Shown: positions 3,032-10,020 of the stretch, in pieces
Numbering within the stretch: position 1 is the first letter of the stretch
Layout of the letters: each line of letters begins with the position of its first letter
NCBI GenBank assembly: GCA_020850915.1
Contig: JADZDV010000031.1
Coordinates: forward strand, 1-10,020
Direction: 5' to 3'
Length of the DNA stretch: 10,020 nucleotides
Source of the DNA: Chloroflexota bacterium
Lineage (GTDB): Bacteria > Chloroflexota > UBA6077 > JADZDV01
Notes under the pieces: generated by a model
The model's database searches: none
Told to the model about the DNA's origin: nothing
What the model saw: only the letters and a program-made list of their open reading frames with translations
Position numbers and translations under genes: made by a program

Positions 3032-3940
3032 GTGACCGTCGTAGACGCCCACGTTCACACATTTCCTGACGCTGAGACGGGGCTGGTCTGGCAGCGACGA
3101 CTCGGGGTGCCCGAGCCGCGGCGAACGGGCGCGGTGGCCGAGCTACGCGGAATCATGGACCAGAACGGCATCAATCACGCCGTCATGCTGCTGTATCCGC
3201 GCTCGCTGGAGCGGTACGGCGAGCTGCTCCAGGGGGCTGGAGTCGGAGCGGACCGCGAGGCGATCCGACAGACCATCCGCGACGAGATCGACGGGCTGAA
3301 TCGATGGGGCTGCTCGGTGGCGGCCGAGGACGAGCGCTTTCTGCCGTTCGTCGGGGTGAACCCGTGCTTTCAGACGGAGCGTGAGTATCTGGCCGAGCTT
3401 GACACGCTCGTGGAGCAGGGCGCCCGCGGGGTGAAGCTCATCCCGCCCTCGATGCAGATGTACGCCAGCGACCGGCGTCTGTTCCCGCTGTACCAGCGGT
3501 GCTGGGAGCTGAAGCTGCCGATCCTGTCGCAGTCGGGCGTTGGCGGCGGCCCGCCGCCAGCGCCGGGGGCCGATCACTACGGTCGACCGCGCTACTGGGC
3601 GGAGGTGTTGGAGATCTTCCCGGGGCTGCGGGTCGTTCTGGCCCACATGGCGCTCGGCTACGAAGATGACCTGGTCAGTCTGATGGCGCGCTTTCCCAGC
3701 GTGGTCACGGACACCTCGCTCCGGTTCAGCGGACTCGGCAAGCCCGGCCGCTCCTCGGCCGAGCAGGTCGTCGATCTGATCCGCCTGGTGGGCGTCGAAC
3801 GGGTTCTGCTCGGCAGCAACTACCCCGCGACCAATCCCGCTGTTTACGCGGAGATCCTGCGCCAGCTTCCGTTGAGCGCGAGCGAGTGGGAGAGCATCGC
3901 CAGCGGCAATTTCGAGCGGCTGATGGCGCGAGATGGCTGA
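3032..3940 (+). CDS. Amidohydrolase family 2 (ACMSD/resorcylate-decarboxylase-like TIM barrel) protein
   Basis: A 302-residue TIM-barrel protein beginning D-A-H-V-H (His7, His9), with G-V-K-L-I-P-P, L-A-H-M (His205) and a final L-G-S-N-Y-P. This order is that of Amidohydro_2 proteins, which hydrolyse lactones or decarboxylate or hydrate aromatic-pathway acids. Two metal-site positions differ: the usual His after the central strand is Gln167 (L-S-Q-S-G), and the usual Asp of G-S-D-x-P is Asn263. Asn at the second place occurs in some subfamilies as I recall; Gln at the first is less usual. The GTG start lies one base after the stop of the previous gene, with GGAG at 3020-3023 and eight bases of spacing, so translation is probably coupled. 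The exact reaction cannot be assigned. Confidence 0.9.
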   Translation: MTVVDAHVHTFPDAETGLVWQRRLGVPEPRRTGAVAELRGIMDQNGINHAVMLLYPRSLERYGELLQGAGVGADREAIRQTIRDEIDGLNRWGCSVAAEDERFLPFVGVNPCFQTEREYLAELDTLVEQGARGVKLIPPSMQMYASDRRLFPLYQRCWELKLPILSQSGVGGGPPPAPGADHYGRPRYWAEVLEIFPGLRVVLAHMALGYEDDLVSLMARFPSVVTDTSLRFSGLGKPGRSSAEQVVDLIRLVGVERVLLGSNYPATNPAVYAEILRQLPLSASEWESIASGNFERLMARDG

Positions 3941-6266
3941 ATCCGGCACTTCCACACCCGCGGAGGGCCCTCTGGCGGGGATCCGCGTGTTCGACTGGAC
4001 CATCTACGCCCTGGGCCCGTTCGCGGGGGTGCTGCTGGGCGCGCTGGGCGCTGAGGTCATCAAGATCGAGGCGCCGTCCGGCGATCCCCAGGCGCTGGAG
4101 CGCGGCAAGCAGCACGGCCTGGGGCAGATGTACATGAACCTGAACCTCAACAAGCGCTCGGTAACGCTCGATCTCTCGAAGGCCGAGGGTCGAGCGAAGG
4201 CGCTGGAGCTGGCGTCCCGCTGCGACGTGTTCCTGAACAACATGCGCCCGGGCACGCCGGATCGACTGGGCCTTGGCTACGAGACGCTGCGGGGTGTCAA
4301 CCGGGGGATCGTCTACGCAGTGGCTACGGCCTGGGGGCGCAGCGGCCCGATGGCAGGCGTTGGCGGCGTGGACGTGCTGGCGCAGGCGTTCGCCGGCTGG
4401 GCCAGCATCACCGGCGCGCCCGGCGGCCGGCCGGAGATCGGGCGCCACCTCGGGTACCTCGACCTGGCCGGAAGCTGCTACGTCGTGGCAGCGATTCTCC
4501 AGGCGCTCATCGTCCGCGCGCGGACCGGTCGCGGGCAGCGGATCGACGTCAGCCTGCTTGGGAGCGCCCTCGCCATGCAGGCGACTCGGCTGGCAGAGTT
4601 CTTCGCCACGGGCCAGGTCCCCCCGCGGGCCGGCAGCGCCTCGACAGCCGTCGCCCCAGACCAGGCGCTCCACTGTCAGGACCAGCGCTACCTCGCGGTC
4701 AGCGTGCTCACCGAGACCCAGTGGCAGGGCCTGCTGGCGGCGCTCGGCCAGCCAGCCGAGCTGCTCGATGCCGCTTTCAGGACCAATGCCGGGCGAGTCG
4801 CGCGGCGAGATGAGCTAGCTGGTCGCCTGGCAGCCCTGTTTGCCAAGCGACCAAGCGCGTGGTGGCAGATGCAGCTCGCCCGCCACGCCGTGCCGCACAG
4901 TCGCTTCTGGGATTTTGAGGTTATTCGTCACCATCCTCAGGTGCTCGAGAATGGCTTTCTGGCCGAGGTCGAAACGGCGCGCTGGGGGCGGCTCTTCGCG
5001 GGCGCGCCACCGTGGCAGTTCGAATCGACGCCGGCCGCGCTGCGGAGCAACCCCGAGCCCGGCGGCGATACCGCCGAGGTGCTCGGTCAGCTCGAACGGG
5101 GGGAGCTGCGCCTGTCTACAATCGAGACGCCGTGGCCGTTGGCCGCGTTCAGGAAGGCGCGCGACTCTGCGATCGACGTGGACCCGGCCCGTTCGCTGGT
5201 TGGCCTGCGCGTGCTCGATCTGACCCAGGGCATCGCCGGGCCGTACGCCGGTCGTCTGCTGGCCGAGAACGGCGCCGACGTCCTGAAACTGGAGCCGGCA
5301 GCAGGGGACGCCCTCCGGCGGCTCGGACCGCCGCGGCCCGATGGATCCAGCCCGCTCTTTGAGACCATCAATCACGGCAAACGCATTCGCCGCGCGGCGA
5401 CGGAGCTGACCCAGGCGACCGACGAGGCGCGGCGAGTGGCGCGCGAGGTGGACGTCGTGCTGGTGGACTGCCCGGGACCAGACGGCGAGGCGCCCTGGGT
5501 CGAGCGCGCGTGGCTGGCGTCAGTGAACTCGCGAGCGATCTACAGTGCCGTCAGCCCGCTCGGGGCTCGCGGACCGCTGGCCACCACGCCAGCCTCTGAG
5601 CTGGTTGTCCAGGCTATGAGCGACGTCTGGGGAGGACTCGGGGAGATCGGCCAGCCGCCGGTGCGCCTGGGAGCGGACATGGTCTCCCTGGCCGCGGGCC
5701 TGGTGACCTACCAGGGCGTACTCGCGGCCCTCTTCTGGCGCATGCGGAGCGATCAGGGTCAGCGGGTGGATACGAGCTTGCTGGGAACGTCGTTCTGCCT
5801 GAAGAGCTACCACTGGGGCGCTCTCAGCGAGCCAGATAGCTGGGAGGGGATCGTCCATCACGGCTGGACCAATCCGCCGAACCATGGCTACCGCACGGTC
5901 GACGGGGCGGTGTACTTCGTGTTCTATCGCGGCACGGAGGACGAGTTCTATCAGCTTCTGATGGAGCTGGGAATGGGGGACGACGTCCTGAGCGACCCGC
6001 GTTTTGCCGAAGGGCCCTGGGCGGTCGCGGGTGTTGGTCGATACGCGGCCGAGCTTCGACCGGTCTGGGAGGCGGCTCTATCGAAGCTGACGACGGCGCA
6101 GGCGCTGGGAATTCTCCGCCGCCACCGAGTGGACGCCGTGCCGATCAACGATTACGTGGCGCTGGTGGACCATCCGCAGGTCGCCGCGCTCGGCTCGATA
6201 GGACGGCTCGTGGCCCCTGGTGGTCCGCTGCGATATGTGCGCACGCCGGTGGATGTGGGCTGGTAG
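3933..6266 (+). CDS. Double-domain family III CoA-transferase (CaiB/BaiF fusion)
   Basis: 777 residues, about twice a normal CaiB/BaiF protein of around 400. Domain 1 runs from about residue 14 to 400 and domain 2 from about 422 to 777. Each opens with the family signature (L-A-G-I-R-V-F-D and L-V-G-L-R-V-L-D, followed by G-P-x-A-G and A-E-V-I-K-I-E or A-D-V-L-K-L-E). Family III enzymes move CoA between carboxylic acids through an aspartyl-CoA thioester. In domain 1 the aspartate expected from formyl-CoA transferase Asp169 is Asp177, 16 positions before the end of the following helix. In domain 2 the same position is Ser585, with an Asp only three residues earlier at 582. Family III enzymes normally work as interlocked dimers, so this fusion may form one active and one structural half. 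The ATG overlaps the previous stop by 8 bp, implying translational coupling. It would supply acyl-CoA to the crotonases. Confidence 0.93.
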   Translation: MAESGTSTPAEGPLAGIRVFDWTIYALGPFAGVLLGALGAEVIKIEAPSGDPQALERGKQHGLGQMYMNLNLNKRSVTLDLSKAEGRAKALELASRCDVFLNNMRPGTPDRLGLGYETLRGVNRGIVYAVATAWGRSGPMAGVGGVDVLAQAFAGWASITGAPGGRPEIGRHLGYLDLAGSCYVVAAILQALIVRARTGRGQRIDVSLLGSALAMQATRLAEFFATGQVPPRAGSASTAVAPDQALHCQDQRYLAVSVLTETQWQGLLAALGQPAELLDAAFRTNAGRVARRDELAGRLAALFAKRPSAWWQMQLARHAVPHSRFWDFEVIRHHPQVLENGFLAEVETARWGRLFAGAPPWQFESTPAALRSNPEPGGDTAEVLGQLERGELRLSTIETPWPLAAFRKARDSAIDVDPARSLVGLRVLDLTQGIAGPYAGRLLAENGADVLKLEPAAGDALRRLGPPRPDGSSPLFETINHGKRIRRAATELTQATDEARRVAREVDVVLVDCPGPDGEAPWVERAWLASVNSRAIYSAVSPLGARGPLATTPASELVVQAMSDVWGGLGEIGQPPVRLGADMVSLAAGLVTYQGVLAALFWRMRSDQGQRVDTSLLGTSFCLKSYHWGALSEPDSWEGIVHHGWTNPPNHGYRTVDGAVYFVFYRGTEDEFYQLLMELGMGDDVLSDPRFAEGPWAVAGVGRYAAELRPVWEAALSKLTTAQALGILRRHRVDAVPINDYVALVDHPQVAALGSIGRLVAPGGPLRYVRTPVDVGW

Positions 6267-6430: not shown

Positions 6431-7036
6431 ATGGGATCTCCTGCACGGAGTGACGATAGGCTCGACCTGGCAGGCCTGGGAGAGCGGATCCGGCTACGAC
6501 GCTTGCAGCGCCGGTTGTCGCTGGACGAGCTGGCGCTGCGCTCGGGTGTCAGTCGCAGCATGATCTCCAGCGTCGAGCGGGGCAAGAAGGTGCCGACGGT
6601 GGTGGTGCTGAGTCGGATCGCAACCGCGCTCGACGCGAGCATTGCTCGGCTCCTGGGGGAGGAGCGATCGGCTCGAGTCGTGCTCCTGCGGAGGGAGCAA
6701 CAGGACGTCGTGCGAGACGAGTCCGGTCTGGAGCGGCGGGTGCTCTCGCCGGTGCTGCCGAGCGTCGAGTTCGTGCTGGTGCGCGGCCTGATCCCCCCGG
6801 GTGTGACGGCGGGTCTTTTCCGCCCACACGCGCCGGGGACGCGAGAGTATCTAGCCGTCGAATCGGGCGAGCTGCGCGTGACGATCGACAGCGAAGAGCA
6901 CCGTCTGATGGCGGGCGACAGCCTCTACTTCGCCGGCGACTGCTTCCATGGAGTCGCCAATGAGCGAGACCGGCCGTGCGTCTACTATGTTGCGAGCGAC
7001 ATCAACGCGGGGGCCGATCTGCCCGGGCGCGGGTAA
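6431..7036 (+). CDS. XRE-family transcriptional regulator with C-terminal cupin domain
   Basis: 201 residues. Residues about 16-76 form an XRE/Cro helix-turn-helix: L-G-E-R-I-R-L-R-R, then L-D-E-L-A-L-R-S-G-V-S-R-S-M-I-S-S-V-E-R-G-K, with L-L-G closing the domain. Residues about 110-190 are a cupin barrel with H-A-P-G-T-R-E-Y-L-A-V-E-S-G-E-L, M-A-G-D-S and F-H-G-V-A-N; His133, Glu139 and His173 sit where cupins bind a metal or small ligand. HTH-cupin proteins of this build usually sense a small molecule through the cupin and repress nearby catabolic or redox genes. It is the first gene of the right-hand group, 30 bp before the first selenoprotein gene, and a dyad lies at its own start, so it may regulate itself and the selenoprotein genes. 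Ligand unknown. Confidence 0.9.
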   Translation: MGSPARSDDRLDLAGLGERIRLRRLQRRLSLDELALRSGVSRSMISSVERGKKVPTVVVLSRIATALDASIARLLGEERSARVVLLRREQQDVVRDESGLERRVLSPVLPSVEFVLVRGLIPPGVTAGLFRPHAPGTREYLAVESGELRVTIDSEEHRLMAGDSLYFAGDCFHGVANERDRPCVYYVASDINAGADLPGRG

Positions 7037-7066
7037 GCGGGGCGCTGAAGACTGGGAGGGAGTGCC

Positions 7067-7723
7067 ATGGCGCGTCTGCCGTACCTGAATGATGACGAGC
7101 TGAACGATCGACAGCGGCTCGTGTTTGACGGCTGCGTGGAGCTGCTGGGACGTGTGCCGAATTCGATGCGTCTGTACGCCCGCACCCCGAAGGTGGCAGG
7201 CTGGTTCGTGCCGTTCCTCGCCAGCCTCCAGCGCGAGGGCGCGGGTGGCCTGCTGGACGGGCGCACGAAGGAGCTGGCGATCTTGAAGACCTCGTTGACG
7301 AACTCCTGCCGCTACTGAACGACGCATAACACGTCGCTCGGGATAGCGACAGGGCTGAGCCAGGAGCAGATCGACGCCGCGGCCGGGGACTATGCGTCGT
7401 CCGACGTACTGTCCGACCGTGACAAGGCTGTCTGTCGCTGGGCCGAGGCGGTCACAACGTATGAAGCGCCGGAGGACGACGAGGCGTTCGAGCAGCTCAA
7501 GCAGTTCTTCACGGACGACGAGATCGTGGAGCTGACCTGGGTCTCGGCGCTGTTCAACATGGTCAACCGCGTGCACGACTCGCTTCGGCTGGATGTCGAA
7601 GAACAGAGCGAGGTCAACAAGATCCGCCGCTCGGCTGTCCTGACCGAGGAGGCGATCCTGAAGTACGGACGCCGCCTGGTAGAGCAGGCAGGCGCCGATC
7701 TCGAGGCGAGGCGAGGGGAGTAG
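7067..7723 (+). CDS. AhpD-like / carboxymuconolactone decarboxylase family selenoprotein (Sec84, first tandem copy)
   Basis: Read through the in-frame TGA at 7316-7318, this gives a 218-residue protein ending at TAG 7721-7723. The TGA is codon 84 in C81-R-Y-U84-T-T-H-N, where relatives have the second Cys of a C-x-x-C redox pair. Glu69 is 12 residues before Cys81, the spacing of Glu118 and Cys130 in AhpD, and His87 follows the Sec. After the TGA the frame stays conserved and family-like (D-R-D-K-A-V, W-A-E-A, L-T-W-V, L-F-N-M-V-N-R-V), and a stem-loop at 7333-7350 has SECIS-like form and position. Ignoring readthrough would leave an 83-residue stub without its redox partner. Start ATG has GGGAGGGAG at 7054-7062. 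The role is probably a thiol/selenol redox or peroxide-linked step, perhaps passing electrons to the reductase downstream; CxxU AhpD-like selenoproteins are known from selenoproteome surveys. Confidence 0.88.
7333..7350 (+). promoter_or_regulatory. Candidate bacterial SECIS stem-loop of the first AhpD-like gene
   Basis: GTCGCT (7333-7338) pairs perfectly with AGCGAC (7345-7350) around a six-base loop CGGGAT. The stem begins after 14 intervening bases and the loop lies about 20 bases after the TGA. Bacterial SECIS elements lie inside the coding sequence at this kind of distance and carry G near the start of the apical loop to bind SelB; E. coli fdhF is the model. The loop lacks the classical GU, so this is the weaker loop of the three. 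Confidence 0.7.
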
Positions 7724-7760
7724 CGGTGGTATTCAAGAGCGGCACGGTAGCCGGATGACG

Positions 7761-7765
7761 AGGAG
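7761..7765 (+). promoter_or_regulatory. Ribosome binding site that selects the GTG at 7771
   Basis: AGGAG at 7761-7765 lies five bases before GTG 7771. An alternative GTG at 7765 overlaps this motif and so is unlikely as a start. The 7771 start also gives the N-terminus A-R-L-P-Y shared with the paralogue upstream. Confidence 0.7.
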
Positions 7766-7770
7766 TGACC

Positions 7771-8436
7771 GTGGCAAGACTTCCGTATGTCCCGGATGAC
7801 GTTGACGACGAGCTTACGCGACTGTACTTCGGCGGCTGTCGACAGCTCCTGGGGCGAATTCCCAACTCCGCCCGAGTGCGGGCCCACGTACCCCGCATCG
7901 CGGCCTGGTACGTCCCGTTCCTGGTGAGCCTCCAGCGCGAGGGCATTGGCGTTCTGGACAGCCGCACCAAGGAGCTGGCGATCCTGAAGGTCTCACTGAC
8001 TAACGCGTGCGGCTATTGAACGACCCACAACACGTCGCTTGGTCAGGCGGCAGGCATTACTGACGAGCAGATCGGGGCGCTGGAGGGGGACTACGAAAAC
8101 TCGCCAGCTTTCACCGAGCGGGACCGGGCGGTCATCCACTGGGCAGAGGCGATGACGCTGAACACGGCGCGGGATGACGACGAGGGCTTTGAGCGCCTGA
8201 AGGCGTTCTTCGACGACGCGGAGATCATGGAGCTGACCTGGGTGATTGGCCTGTTCAATATGAACAACCGGGTCCAGGACGCGATGAAACTCGAGATCGA
8301 AGAGCGCCACGAAGTCGACAAGATCAGGCGCTCCCGGCTGGTCACCGAAGAGATGATCGTCGAGTACGCCCGTGAACTCGTGGCGACCTATGACCGGCGG
8401 AAGGCACAGAAAGCCTGCAACAGTCCCACTTCATGA
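7771..8436 (+). CDS. AhpD-like / carboxymuconolactone decarboxylase family selenoprotein (Sec83, second tandem copy)
   Basis: Read through TGA 8017-8019, this gives 221 residues ending at TGA 8434-8436. It is a paralogue of the gene 47 bp upstream, about half identical by eye along its whole length, including A-R-L-P-Y at the N-terminus, K-E-L-A-I-L-K, T-T-H-N-T-S-L-G right after the TGA, L-T-W-V and L-F-N-M. The Sec is in C80-G-Y-U83, with Glu68 and His86 at the same places as in the first copy, so the two genes keep an in-frame TGA at exactly the same alignment column. A stem-loop at 8034-8051 lies at exactly the same distance. The final TGA is treated as a true stop because the frame then meets TGA again at once, and the GGAGG site of the next gene starts two bases later. 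The pair may form a heteromer. The most likely role is redox transfer by a selenol-thiol pair; the substrate is unknown. Confidence 0.88.
8034..8051 (+). promoter_or_regulatory. Candidate bacterial SECIS stem-loop of the second AhpD-like gene
   Basis: GTCGCTT (8034-8040) pairs with AGGCGGC (8045-8051), seven pairs including two U-G wobbles, around the loop GGTC. The loop begins 22 bases after the TGA and contains G-G-U, much like the AGGUCU loop of E. coli fdhF. Compared with the first copy the 3' arm encodes different residues (Gln-Ala-Ala instead of Ile-Ala-Thr), yet each change swaps a U-A pair for U-G, so pairing is kept. Confidence 0.78.
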
Positions 8437-8437
8437 C

Positions 8438-8442
8438 GGAGG
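8438..8442 (+). promoter_or_regulatory. Ribosome binding site of the GrdB/PrdB-like gene
   Basis: GGAGG four bases before ATG 8447. It decides this start over an in-frame ATG at 8372 that lies inside the previous gene. Confidence 0.75.
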
Positions 8443-8446
8443 TGAG

Positions 8447-9226
8447 ATGACGCTCTCCGAGCTACAGCGGCAGATCGAGGCGGAGCGCTTCGAAAAGTGG
8501 AAGAAGAACATCGAAGGCACGCACGCGGGCGGCCATTTCCTGCCGAACGACCGGCTCTACTGGTCACCGCTGACCAGGCCGCTCTCGCAGGCCACTGTGG
8601 CGCTGGTGACGAGCATCGGCGTGCACCTGAAGACGCAGCAGCCGTTCGACATCCTCGATCCGCACGGCGACCCCACAATCCGCGACATTCCTGGCGACGT
8701 TGATACCAGGGACCTGATGGCGACGCACGGTCACGTGGATACCGGTCCAGCCAACACCGACCCGAACGTCGCCCTGCCGATCGACCGGCTGCGCGAGCTG
8801 GTCGCGGCGGGCCGGGTCGGAGCGGCGGCGCGGCGTCACTATGGTCTGATGGGTTTCTGCCCAGCGATCGAGCGGATGCGAGATGAGGTTGGGCCGGAGA
8901 TCGCGCGACGGATGCACGAGGACGGAGTGGACGCCGCTATCCTGACCGCGGGTTGACCGATGTGCCATCAGTCCGTTGGACTGGTCCAGGGACAGATCGA
9001 GAAGTCCGGTATCCCCACCATCTCGACGACGGTCCGGACCGAGGTGACGCGGTACTCGCTCGTGCCGCGAGCGGTCTACGTGCGCTTCCCGATCGGGAAC
9101 CCGATCGGAGAGGCCGGCAAGCCGGAGCAGCAGCAGAAGATCCTCGTGGCGATTCTGGATGCCTTCGAGTCGATCGATGAGCCGGGAACGATCGTCGAGC
9201 TGCCGTTCCGCTGGAGACGGATGTGA
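8447..9226 (+). CDS. GrdB/PrdB-type reductase subunit, selenoprotein (Sec170)
   Basis: Read through TGA 8954-8956, this gives 259 residues of the glycine/sarcosine/betaine/D-proline reductase selenoprotein B family. The length is near the roughly 240 residues of the PrdB subunit of D-proline reductase and far below GrdB (about 430). Features in order are T-R-P-L-S-Q-A-T-V-A-L-V-T-S (about residues 43-56), R-D-I-P-G-D-V, H-G-H-V-D-T, D-P-N-V-A-L-P-I-D-R-L, H-Y-G-L-M-G-F, D-G-V-D-A-A-I-L-T, then U170-P-M-C173-H-Q-S-V-G and S-G-I-P-T-I-S, R-F-P-I-G-N-P-I-G. The TGA sits where these proteins have the catalytic Sec or Cys of a U-x-x-C motif. Known members cleave C-N bonds reductively through the selenol. 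No PrdA-, GrdA- or GrdC/D-like gene is visible, so the substrate may differ from the clostridial systems. The last four bases overlap the next gene. Confidence 0.9.
8967..8985 (+). promoter_or_regulatory. Candidate bacterial SECIS stem-loop of the GrdB/PrdB-like gene
   Basis: CAGTCC (8969-8974) and GGACTG (8978-8983) form a perfect six-pair stem with loop GTT, extendable outward by a U-G and an A-U pair. The loop begins 19 bases after the TGA and starts with G-U. E. coli fdhF has its loop at about 18-23 bases. This is the cleanest of the three stem-loops. Confidence 0.78.
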
Positions 9227-9534
9227 GCGAAGGTAGCACGGGAGCGGGATTGCCGGGCTACCGCATCACGACGGATAGCCTGGCCGAGATCCAGGGCCGG
9301 TACGACCAGCTCGTGGACGCCGTCGAACGGTATCACCGTCGGATCGCGGCCGAGCTGGCGAGAGCTGAGGCAAGTCCAGGGATCCCGGAGCACTATCCGT
9401 CCCGTCTGGCGATGCACGTGGCCTCGAGCAAGGAGCTGTTGGACGTGCTGGAGACGGCGGCGCACGATGCGCTGGTGCGCGCCTCGGATCGGACCATCCT
9501 GATCAAGGTTGCGGCCGAGGGTACGTTTGTCTGA
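9223..9534 (+). CDS. Small conserved-context protein of unknown function (103 aa)
   Basis: I do not recognise a family. It starts at a GTG that overlaps the TGA of the reductase-like gene (GTGA), with GGAG at 9213-9216 six bases ahead, so the two genes are translationally coupled and probably act together. The protein has no Cys and no signal peptide. Its sequence looks mostly helical (S-L-A-E-I-Q-G-R-Y, then a long amphipathic stretch R-R-I-A-A-E-L-A-R-A-E) with a second helix around K-E-L-L-D-V-L-E-T-A. It may be an accessory or assembly subunit of the selenoprotein reductase. That is inferred from position only. Confidence 0.75.
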   Translation: MSEGSTGAGLPGYRITTDSLAEIQGRYDQLVDAVERYHRRIAAELARAEASPGIPEHYPSRLAMHVASSKELLDVLETAAHDALVRASDRTILIKVAAEGTFV

Positions 9535-9566: not shown

Positions 9567-10020
9567 ATGGACGACAGGGTCGTGGCGCGGGCTCGGCAGG
9601 CGGATGACGTCCTGACTTCGCTCGGCCAGTATGTCGAGGGGCTGTCGCCTGACGAGTGGCAGGGGCCAAGCGACTGCGCGGGCTGGAGCGTGGCGAACGT
9701 TCTGGCTCACCTGGTGCTGGTGACAGACCTGCTGGGCACGGCGATGGAGCGCGGTCTGGCCGGGGAGGGGGGACCACGACCTGAGATTGTCGCCGACGTG
9801 GCAGGCTGGCGGCAGCGCCGCGCACAGGAGGTTCAGCGGCTCAGCAGGCTGCCGCGCTCCGAGCTGCTGAGCGATCTGCGCAGGGGCCTGGGGCGCATGA
9901 ACCGAGCGCAGGCGCGGGTGGCCGAGGCTGGAGAAGGCGGCAGCGGCTGGCATCCTTCCGCGGGGAGGCAGCCGCTGCCGTGGTTCGCTGGCCAGTGGCT
10001 GTACGAGGTAGCGCTTCACG
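9567..10020 (+). CDS. DinB / mycothiol-dependent maleylpyruvate isomerase-like protein, 3' partial
   Basis: The frame is open from ATG 9567 to the window edge (151 codons), so the end is missing. The ribosome binding site GGAGGGG is at 9550-9556. The protein has the four-helix start of the MDMPI/DinB_2 superfamily: G-W-S-V-A-N-V-L-A-H-L with His48, and near the edge L-Y-E-V-A-L-H with Glu147 and His151. In the Corynebacterium maleylpyruvate isomerase, zinc is held by His52, Glu144 and His148 as I recall. The same order and the same four-residue spacing of the last two are seen here. Members of this superfamily use small thiols or act as thiol-dependent hydrolases and isomerases, which suits a neighbourhood of redox selenoproteins. 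The specific reaction is not known. Confidence 0.8.
   Translation, partial: MDDRVVARARQADDVLTSLGQYVEGLSPDEWQGPSDCAGWSVANVLAHLVLVTDLLGTAMERGLAGEGGPRPEIVADVAGWRQRRAQEVQRLSRLPRSELLSDLRRGLGRMNRAQARVAEAGEGGSGWHPSAGRQPLPWFAGQWLYEVALH

Follow-up and report, generated by a model that had tools for sequence, protein, structure and literature searches.

GrdB and PrdB require a pyruvoyl subunit, and proteins of the AhpD and CMD families are known for other activities, peroxidase and debrominase among them. In the available part of a 2026 review (PMC13188914), GrdA, through its CxxU motif, is believed to cooperate with the UxxCxxC motif of GrdB, and the operons described there comprise grdA-grdB, prdB-prdC, frhA-frhD-hdrA, SAO and Tso. 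AhpD-like CxxU and PrdB UxxC selenoproteins were reported in 2005 (PMC1088965) and 2008 (PMC2398784), and in the GOS marine metagenomes the PrdB-like selenoproteins ranked with the most abundant families (PMC2398784), going by the accessible portions of these papers. We analysed a 10,020-nt stretch of DNA from a Chloroflexota bacterium (contig JADZDV010000031.1; hereafter the window), in which three adjacent genes, two AhpD-like and one PrdB/GrdB-like, almost certainly encode selenoproteins, with their internal TGAs predicted to be read as selenocysteine (Sec; Table 1). This trio is not among the operons named in the available part of the review.

Table 1. Features of the selenoprotein gene cluster and its surroundings in the window.
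Feature	Coordinates	Strand	Remarks
XRE-cupin regulator, likely cluster regulator	6431..7036	+	HTH_3 and Cupin_2 above Pfam gathering
AhpD-like protein 1, CxxU	7067..7723	+	PF02627; AhpD-fold model
Predicted Sec codon TGA	7316..7318	+	column alternates Cys/TGA in homologues
Hairpin GUCGCU-CGGGAU-AGCGAC	7333..7350	+	apical loop 20 nt past TGA
AhpD-like protein 2, CxxU, GTG start after AGGAG	7771..8436	+	start is an interpretive reading; PF02627
Predicted Sec codon TGA	8017..8019	+	column alternates Cys/TGA in homologues
SECIS-type hairpin, place matching AhpD-like gene 1	8034..8051	+	apical loop 21 nt past TGA
PrdB/GrdB-like protein, UxxC (TAGUPMCH)	8447..9226	+	PF07355, TIGR04483
Predicted Sec codon TGA	8954..8956	+	column alternates Cys/TGA in homologues
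SECIS-type hairpin	8967..8985	+	apical loop 18 nt past TGA
103-aa protein, likely helical, predicted PrdB-like partner	9223..9534	+	overlaps PrdB-like stop by 4 nt
MDMPI/DinB-type thiol-enzyme gene	9567..10019	+	runs off window; TIGR03083 56.5 bits (cut-off 50), PF11716

Apart from one internal TGA each, the three frames are open to terminal TAG, TGA and TGA, respectively, and translation of each ORF revealed no further in-frame stop. The internal TGAs lie at the redox-Cys site of the homologues, in the motifs SCRYUTTH (ORF 7067-7723), ACGYUTTH (ORF 7771-8436) and TAGUPMCH (ORF 8447-9226), that is, CxxU, CxxU and UxxC in gene order. TGA also terminates seven frames of the window (at 691, 1491, 3028, 3938, 8434, 9224 and 9532), two of which (8434 and 9224) are the cluster's own selenoprotein genes; thus, a changed genetic code does not explain the internal TGAs. 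A preliminary description of this DNA had listed these seven stops as evidence of a normal code, and all seven are indeed TGA. It had also placed one in-frame TGA at a redox Cys in each of three neighbouring genes, with conserved coding sequence downstream, in agreement with our alignments: homologues mostly have Cys or TGA at the site and align across it in both families, with coding conserved on either side.

The search for Cys homologues that the same description had proposed returned Cys at the TGA column of both families. The PrdB-like protein has 248 homologues in the database, and those listed go by the name PrdB. Among the best 120 of these 248, which we examined, 49 fit the pattern of halves cut off immediately ahead of the Sec position, P0001 from the window itself being one of them, and 11 start directly after it; of 58 aligned rows, 56 longer ones covered the column, with Cys in 51, Trp in one and other residues in four. 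At 80 genome loci of PrdB relatives, the kept subset of 330 found, the codon was TGA in 67 cases and Cys in 12, and one locus ends earlier. For AhpD-like protein 2 we found 47 database homologues, 16 of which span the TGA column (Cys in four, Trp in 11, Glu in one). The Trp residues probably mean that gene callers applied another code to a TGA, and many of the remaining rows are C-terminal halves starting just past the TGA.

We surveyed the genomes of relatives, many of them draft MAGs, for SelB and tRNA-Sec. SelB scored above cut-off in 28 of 30 genomes with PrdB-like genes (18/18 of the TGA type, 10/12 of the Cys type). Of 68 genomes selected by their TGA-type AhpD-like matches, 60 had SelB above cut-off; a later run with the same family gave 2 of 14 control genomes above cut-off. 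For tRNA-Sec, 33 of 36 genomes exceeded the gathering score, including 18/18 with TGA-type PrdB, the misses being G019 (Cys type), G927 and G938; of the 14 control genomes, 5 were also above gathering. The case for Sec insertion at the three TGAs is strong.

A stem-loop of SECIS type after each TGA, as claimed in the preliminary description, finds support in its position but not in its energy alone. Constrained hairpins, in which the apical loop had to start 14-38 nt after the TGA with a G within its first two bases, scored -8.6, -8.7 and -9.7 in the window. Folding of the 50 nt past the TGAs was equalled or beaten by 55%, 90% and 23% of the 138 plus-strand TGAs of the window, and the best constrained hairpin alone was likewise ordinary (35%, 35% and 27% of window TGAs as good or better); such energies are ordinary for the GC-rich DNA of the window. 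Shuffling gave p values of 0.06-0.08 for energy only and of 0.018, 0.016 and 0.013 for energy combined with position, and the combined criteria picked out 3/3 selenoprotein TGAs versus 9/135 other TGAs of the window. All three hairpins occupy the position typical of their family, the loop distance in Sec homologues having a median of 20 (IQR 20-21) for AhpD and 18 (IQR 18-21) for PrdB. Median hairpin scores were -10.3 in Sec homologues (n=84) versus -4.5 in Cys homologues (n=12) of PrdB, and -10.7 (n=35) versus -5.0 (n=11) for AhpD; p was about 1e-4 in both families. Cys homologues of PrdB scored much like their shuffles (p 0.52), and those of AhpD scored slightly better than theirs (p 0.02). 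These family p values are optimistic because the homologues are related to each other. By position plus energy, we class the window hairpins as SECIS type, with a predicted function in Sec insertion.

Assignment of the first two genes to the AhpD-like family, likewise made in the preliminary description, is borne out by PF02627 (CMD/AhpD superfamily; 39.0 and 35.6 bits, gathering 23) and by the predicted structure of AhpD-like protein 1 (pLDDT 93.5), which has the AhpD fold and matches 6k40 (TM 0.73/0.85). The two proteins share 61% identity over 205 aa. Both score below the cut-offs of TIGR01926 (peroxidase-related enzyme; 74.6 and 55.7 bits, cut-off 81.8), NF053654 (YciW-related; 74.5 and 74.4 bits, cut-off 310) and NF041238 (AhpD_rel_CFYUT; 39.8 and 36.9 bits, cut-off 175). 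The proton relay of AhpD comprises Glu, Cys, His/Tyr, Cys and His(+4), as laid out in the accessible part of PMC3141380. The window pair has the Glu, Cys and Tyr, with Sec as the second Cys, but its relay His is at +3 and Asn occupies +4, a departure from the AhpD peroxidase relay. In a tree of 51 rows, protein 2 groups with a metagenomic half, P0123 (93/90, branch not starred). Protein 1 joins two Cys proteins, P0122, which sits on a long branch, and P0121, which is named Nitriliruptorales (95/84). These separate neighbours suggest that the duplication predates the splits and that Cys/Sec exchange has happened. Tandem AhpD-like TGA genes also occur at L157:6733-7852 (G586) and L163:4140-5137 (G933); the first Cys is missing from the first L157 gene (AEYU).

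The third gene had been described as PrdB/GrdB-like, and the profiles concur. PF07355 (GrdB family) matches at 49.4 bits (gathering 22), covering profile positions 212-346 of 347 only, and TIGR04483 (PrdB) is the best NCBIfam family (193.5 bits, 3.8e-57), although the curated cut-off of 300 is missed. TIGR01917 (glycine reductase GrdB) gave 61.2 bits against a cut-off of 602.2, and in place of the UxxCxxC of GrdB the protein reads UPMCHQS. The predicted structure has a pLDDT of 96.2, and Foldseek at E 0.001 matched this model to no solved structure. PrdA, PrdC and PrdD flank PrdB in an annotated control; none of them was recognised among the scanned window proteins. None of 64 genomes with PrdB-like genes had a PrdA match over the cut-off, versus 969 bits on the control plasmid; G814 and G820 gave weak, partial ones. 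The missed cut-off and the absence of PrdA above cut-off in the 64 relatives argue that the protein is PrdB-like and probably not PrdB proper. Its closest genome relative (55% identity) has TGA at the site and is followed by the helical partner; it comes from G184, which has SelB and belongs to the same taxonomic order as G007, the source of the Ktedonobacteria locus L010. The G184 contig begins 128 nt upstream of the match and gives no view of preceding genes. Two loci, L027 and L045, each contain two PrdB-like TGA genes. At L002:655-7188, a PrdB-like TGA gene has nearby, on the opposite strand, genes for an aminotransferase, a 2-hydroxyacid dehydrogenase, GntR, an alcohol dehydrogenase and an M24 peptidase.

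The preliminary description took the unit to be 7067..9226. The three genes do lie within these bounds, but the unit likely extends from about 6431 to 9534 and perhaps includes the gene at 9567, whose membership is uncertain. The protein at 9223-9534, likely helical judging from its sequence, has no Pfam or NCBIfam match. It is assigned to the unit because relatives have it fused or adjacent to the PrdB-like protein: in 11 database rows a homologue forms one protein with a PrdB-like C-terminal half, and in L177 (61 bits) and, by a weak match, L001 (23 bits) it adjoins the PrdB-like gene. L002 has a similar gene on the opposite strand, at a distance of about 1.4 kb. As a candidate partner of the PrdB-like protein it appears better supported than the AhpD pair. 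At the other end, the frame of the XRE-cupin gene is open from 6278 and was scanned from there; the ATG at 6431, after GGAGG, is an interpretive start. Gaps from this gene to 9223-9534 are 30, 47, 10 and -4 nt, and a search for promoters and terminators gave no match. We have moderate confidence in a single transcript under the XRE-cupin regulator. Upstream of the cluster lies a double-domain CaiB-type CoA-transferase gene (3933-6266; two PF02515 stretches), preceded by two amidohydrolase and two hydratase-type genes. These neighbours hint at a carboxylic or amide compound as substrate.

At E 1e-8, AhpD-like matches occurred in 136 of the 400 genomes in the phylum of G007; at E 1e-15, they occurred in 52 of 95 in the phylum of G003, the Methylomirabilota MAG behind L003. 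Most matches in the latter phylum have one in-frame TGA, and several genomes have more than one such gene. Among 80 of these genomes, selected because their AhpD-like genes are of the TGA type, 49 have a PrdB-like match (1e-15). Among the matches listed, the two genes lay within 10 kb on one contig in 2 of these 49 genomes (G003 and G933) and, compared by eye, directly side by side in none of the 49. AhpD matches (1e-14) were present in 14 of 80 PrdB-positive genomes, and G576 has the two families 8 kb apart. The trio is adjacent in no relative examined, so the exact trio is known to us from the present contig only.

How might the three proteins work together? The preliminary description had suggested a reductase with selenol redox partners of its own, a role that is predicted here for the AhpD-like proteins. 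The reading we favour, to which we give somewhat less than an even chance, is a PrdA-free GrdB-type reductase in which the CxxU AhpD-fold pair serves the UxxC protein as one functional unit; it draws on the analogy to GrdA/GrdB and on gene order. The reductase would consist of the PrdB-like protein (8447-9226) and its partner (9223-9534). Its Sec would act as the nucleophile that reductively cleaves a small substrate, and the UxxC motif would close to a selenylsulfide. By analogy to GrdA/GrdB, the AhpD-fold CxxU proteins may then hand electrons to the PrdB-like protein, recharging the selenol, and may in turn be reduced by a general dithiol. A bolder form of this idea, which we consider rather unlikely, is a pyruvoyl-free selenol relay in which the AhpD-fold pair replaces GrdA as carriers of electrons or intermediates for the UxxC selenoenzyme; such a relay would place three Sec residues in one electron path, include a helical subunit of its own and form a new class of reductases unconnected with Stickland metabolism. 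The window showed no pyruvoyl subunit. This, the lack of an adjacent trio in any relative examined and the other activities known for AhpD and CMD proteins count against the reading that we favour.

Other explanations share some of the evidence. The genes could encode true selenoproteins of separate machines, with the AhpD pair acting in peroxide or thiol stress, and a separate reductase, made of the PrdB-like protein and its helical partner, that merely happens to share the regulator. We take this possibility seriously while holding it to be improbable on balance: the AhpD fold, best structure matches that are AhpD and peroxidase-related, the rarity with which the two families meet elsewhere and the existence of AhpD-like TGA tandems that have no PrdB-like neighbour (L157) or have one 9 kb away (L163/G933) all speak for it, whereas the tight spacing, including 10 nt between AhpD-like gene 2 and the PrdB-like gene, and the relay His shifted by one place speak against it. 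The roles might even be reversed, the AhpD-like proteins being reductive catalysts, e.g. Bmp8-type dehalogenases, with the PrdB-like protein as reductant. Sec-based dehalogenation of the Bmp8 type would resemble the chemistry of iodothyronine deiodinase. The debrominase Bmp8 (6ohi and 6ohj; C82A mutant with tribromopyrrole) was matched by both sequence profile and fold; but identity to Bmp8 is just 20% (Foldseek), many AhpD structures match better, and no halogen-related genes were recognised in the window, which leaves this explanation with little probability.

Still less probable is that the third gene encodes an ordinary PrdB subunit of D-proline reductase. The best NCBIfam family and the database names point that way, yet 193.5 bits fall well short of 300, the PrdA, PrdC and PrdD genes that flank PrdB in the annotated control are unrecognised in the window, and none of the 64 relatives has PrdA above cut-off. 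That the TGAs stem from assembly errors or gene decay, a thought invited by the fact that they come from one contig, we regard as the most improbable explanation of all: there are three of them, each at the very codon that alternates between Cys and TGA in relatives, none of the genes has a second in-frame stop, and SECIS-type hairpins lie at the family position.

PrdB-like proteins are routinely named D-proline reductase, and the absence of PrdA above cut-off from all 64 genomes with PrdB-like genes implies that this name is likely wrong for many of them. The cluster offers candidate partners, namely the AhpD-like CxxU proteins, the helical subunit and the regulator, which make the real reaction testable, and the keeping of Sec in three adjacent genes bears on the reasons why bacteria retain it. 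The preliminary description did not know the combination as a described system, and we found none in the literature searched, including the available parts of PMC13188914, PMC9312934, PMC2398784 and PMC1088965; subscription papers were mostly outside the search. Selenoproteins of both families have been known since 2005; an AhpD pair next to a PrdB-like gene turned up in no relative examined.

Among the eight window proteins scanned, none matched the Tso models at E 0.01 or the SAO families as named in the available part of the review (PMC13188914). Multi-selenoprotein operons described in the accessible parts of PMC13188914 and PMC2398784 resemble the cluster in having several selenoprotein genes per operon but differ in composition. 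Marine AhpD-like (COG2128/TIGR01926) and CMD-like CxxU selenoproteins, as far as they are covered in the available parts of PMC1088965 and PMC2398784, share family and motif with the window pair; the latter, however, is a tandem beside a PrdB-like gene, has its relay His at +3 instead of +4 and scores under the TIGR01926 cut-off. With PrdB, the window protein has in common its length class, a UxxC-H motif and the best-scoring curated family; in contrast to PrdB, it remains under the cut-off, carries an extra N-terminal stretch and a helical partner, and lies in a window in which PrdA, PrdC and PrdD were not recognised. The GrdA-GrdB pair likewise co-encodes CxxU and UxxC-type selenoproteins, and the PrdB-like protein matches the C-terminal part of GrdB. 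In the window, by contrast, proteins with an AhpD fold stand where GrdA would be, GrdB is represented by its C-terminal part only, the motif lacks the third Cys of UxxCxxC, and neither a pyruvoyl subunit nor GrdC is among the genes seen.
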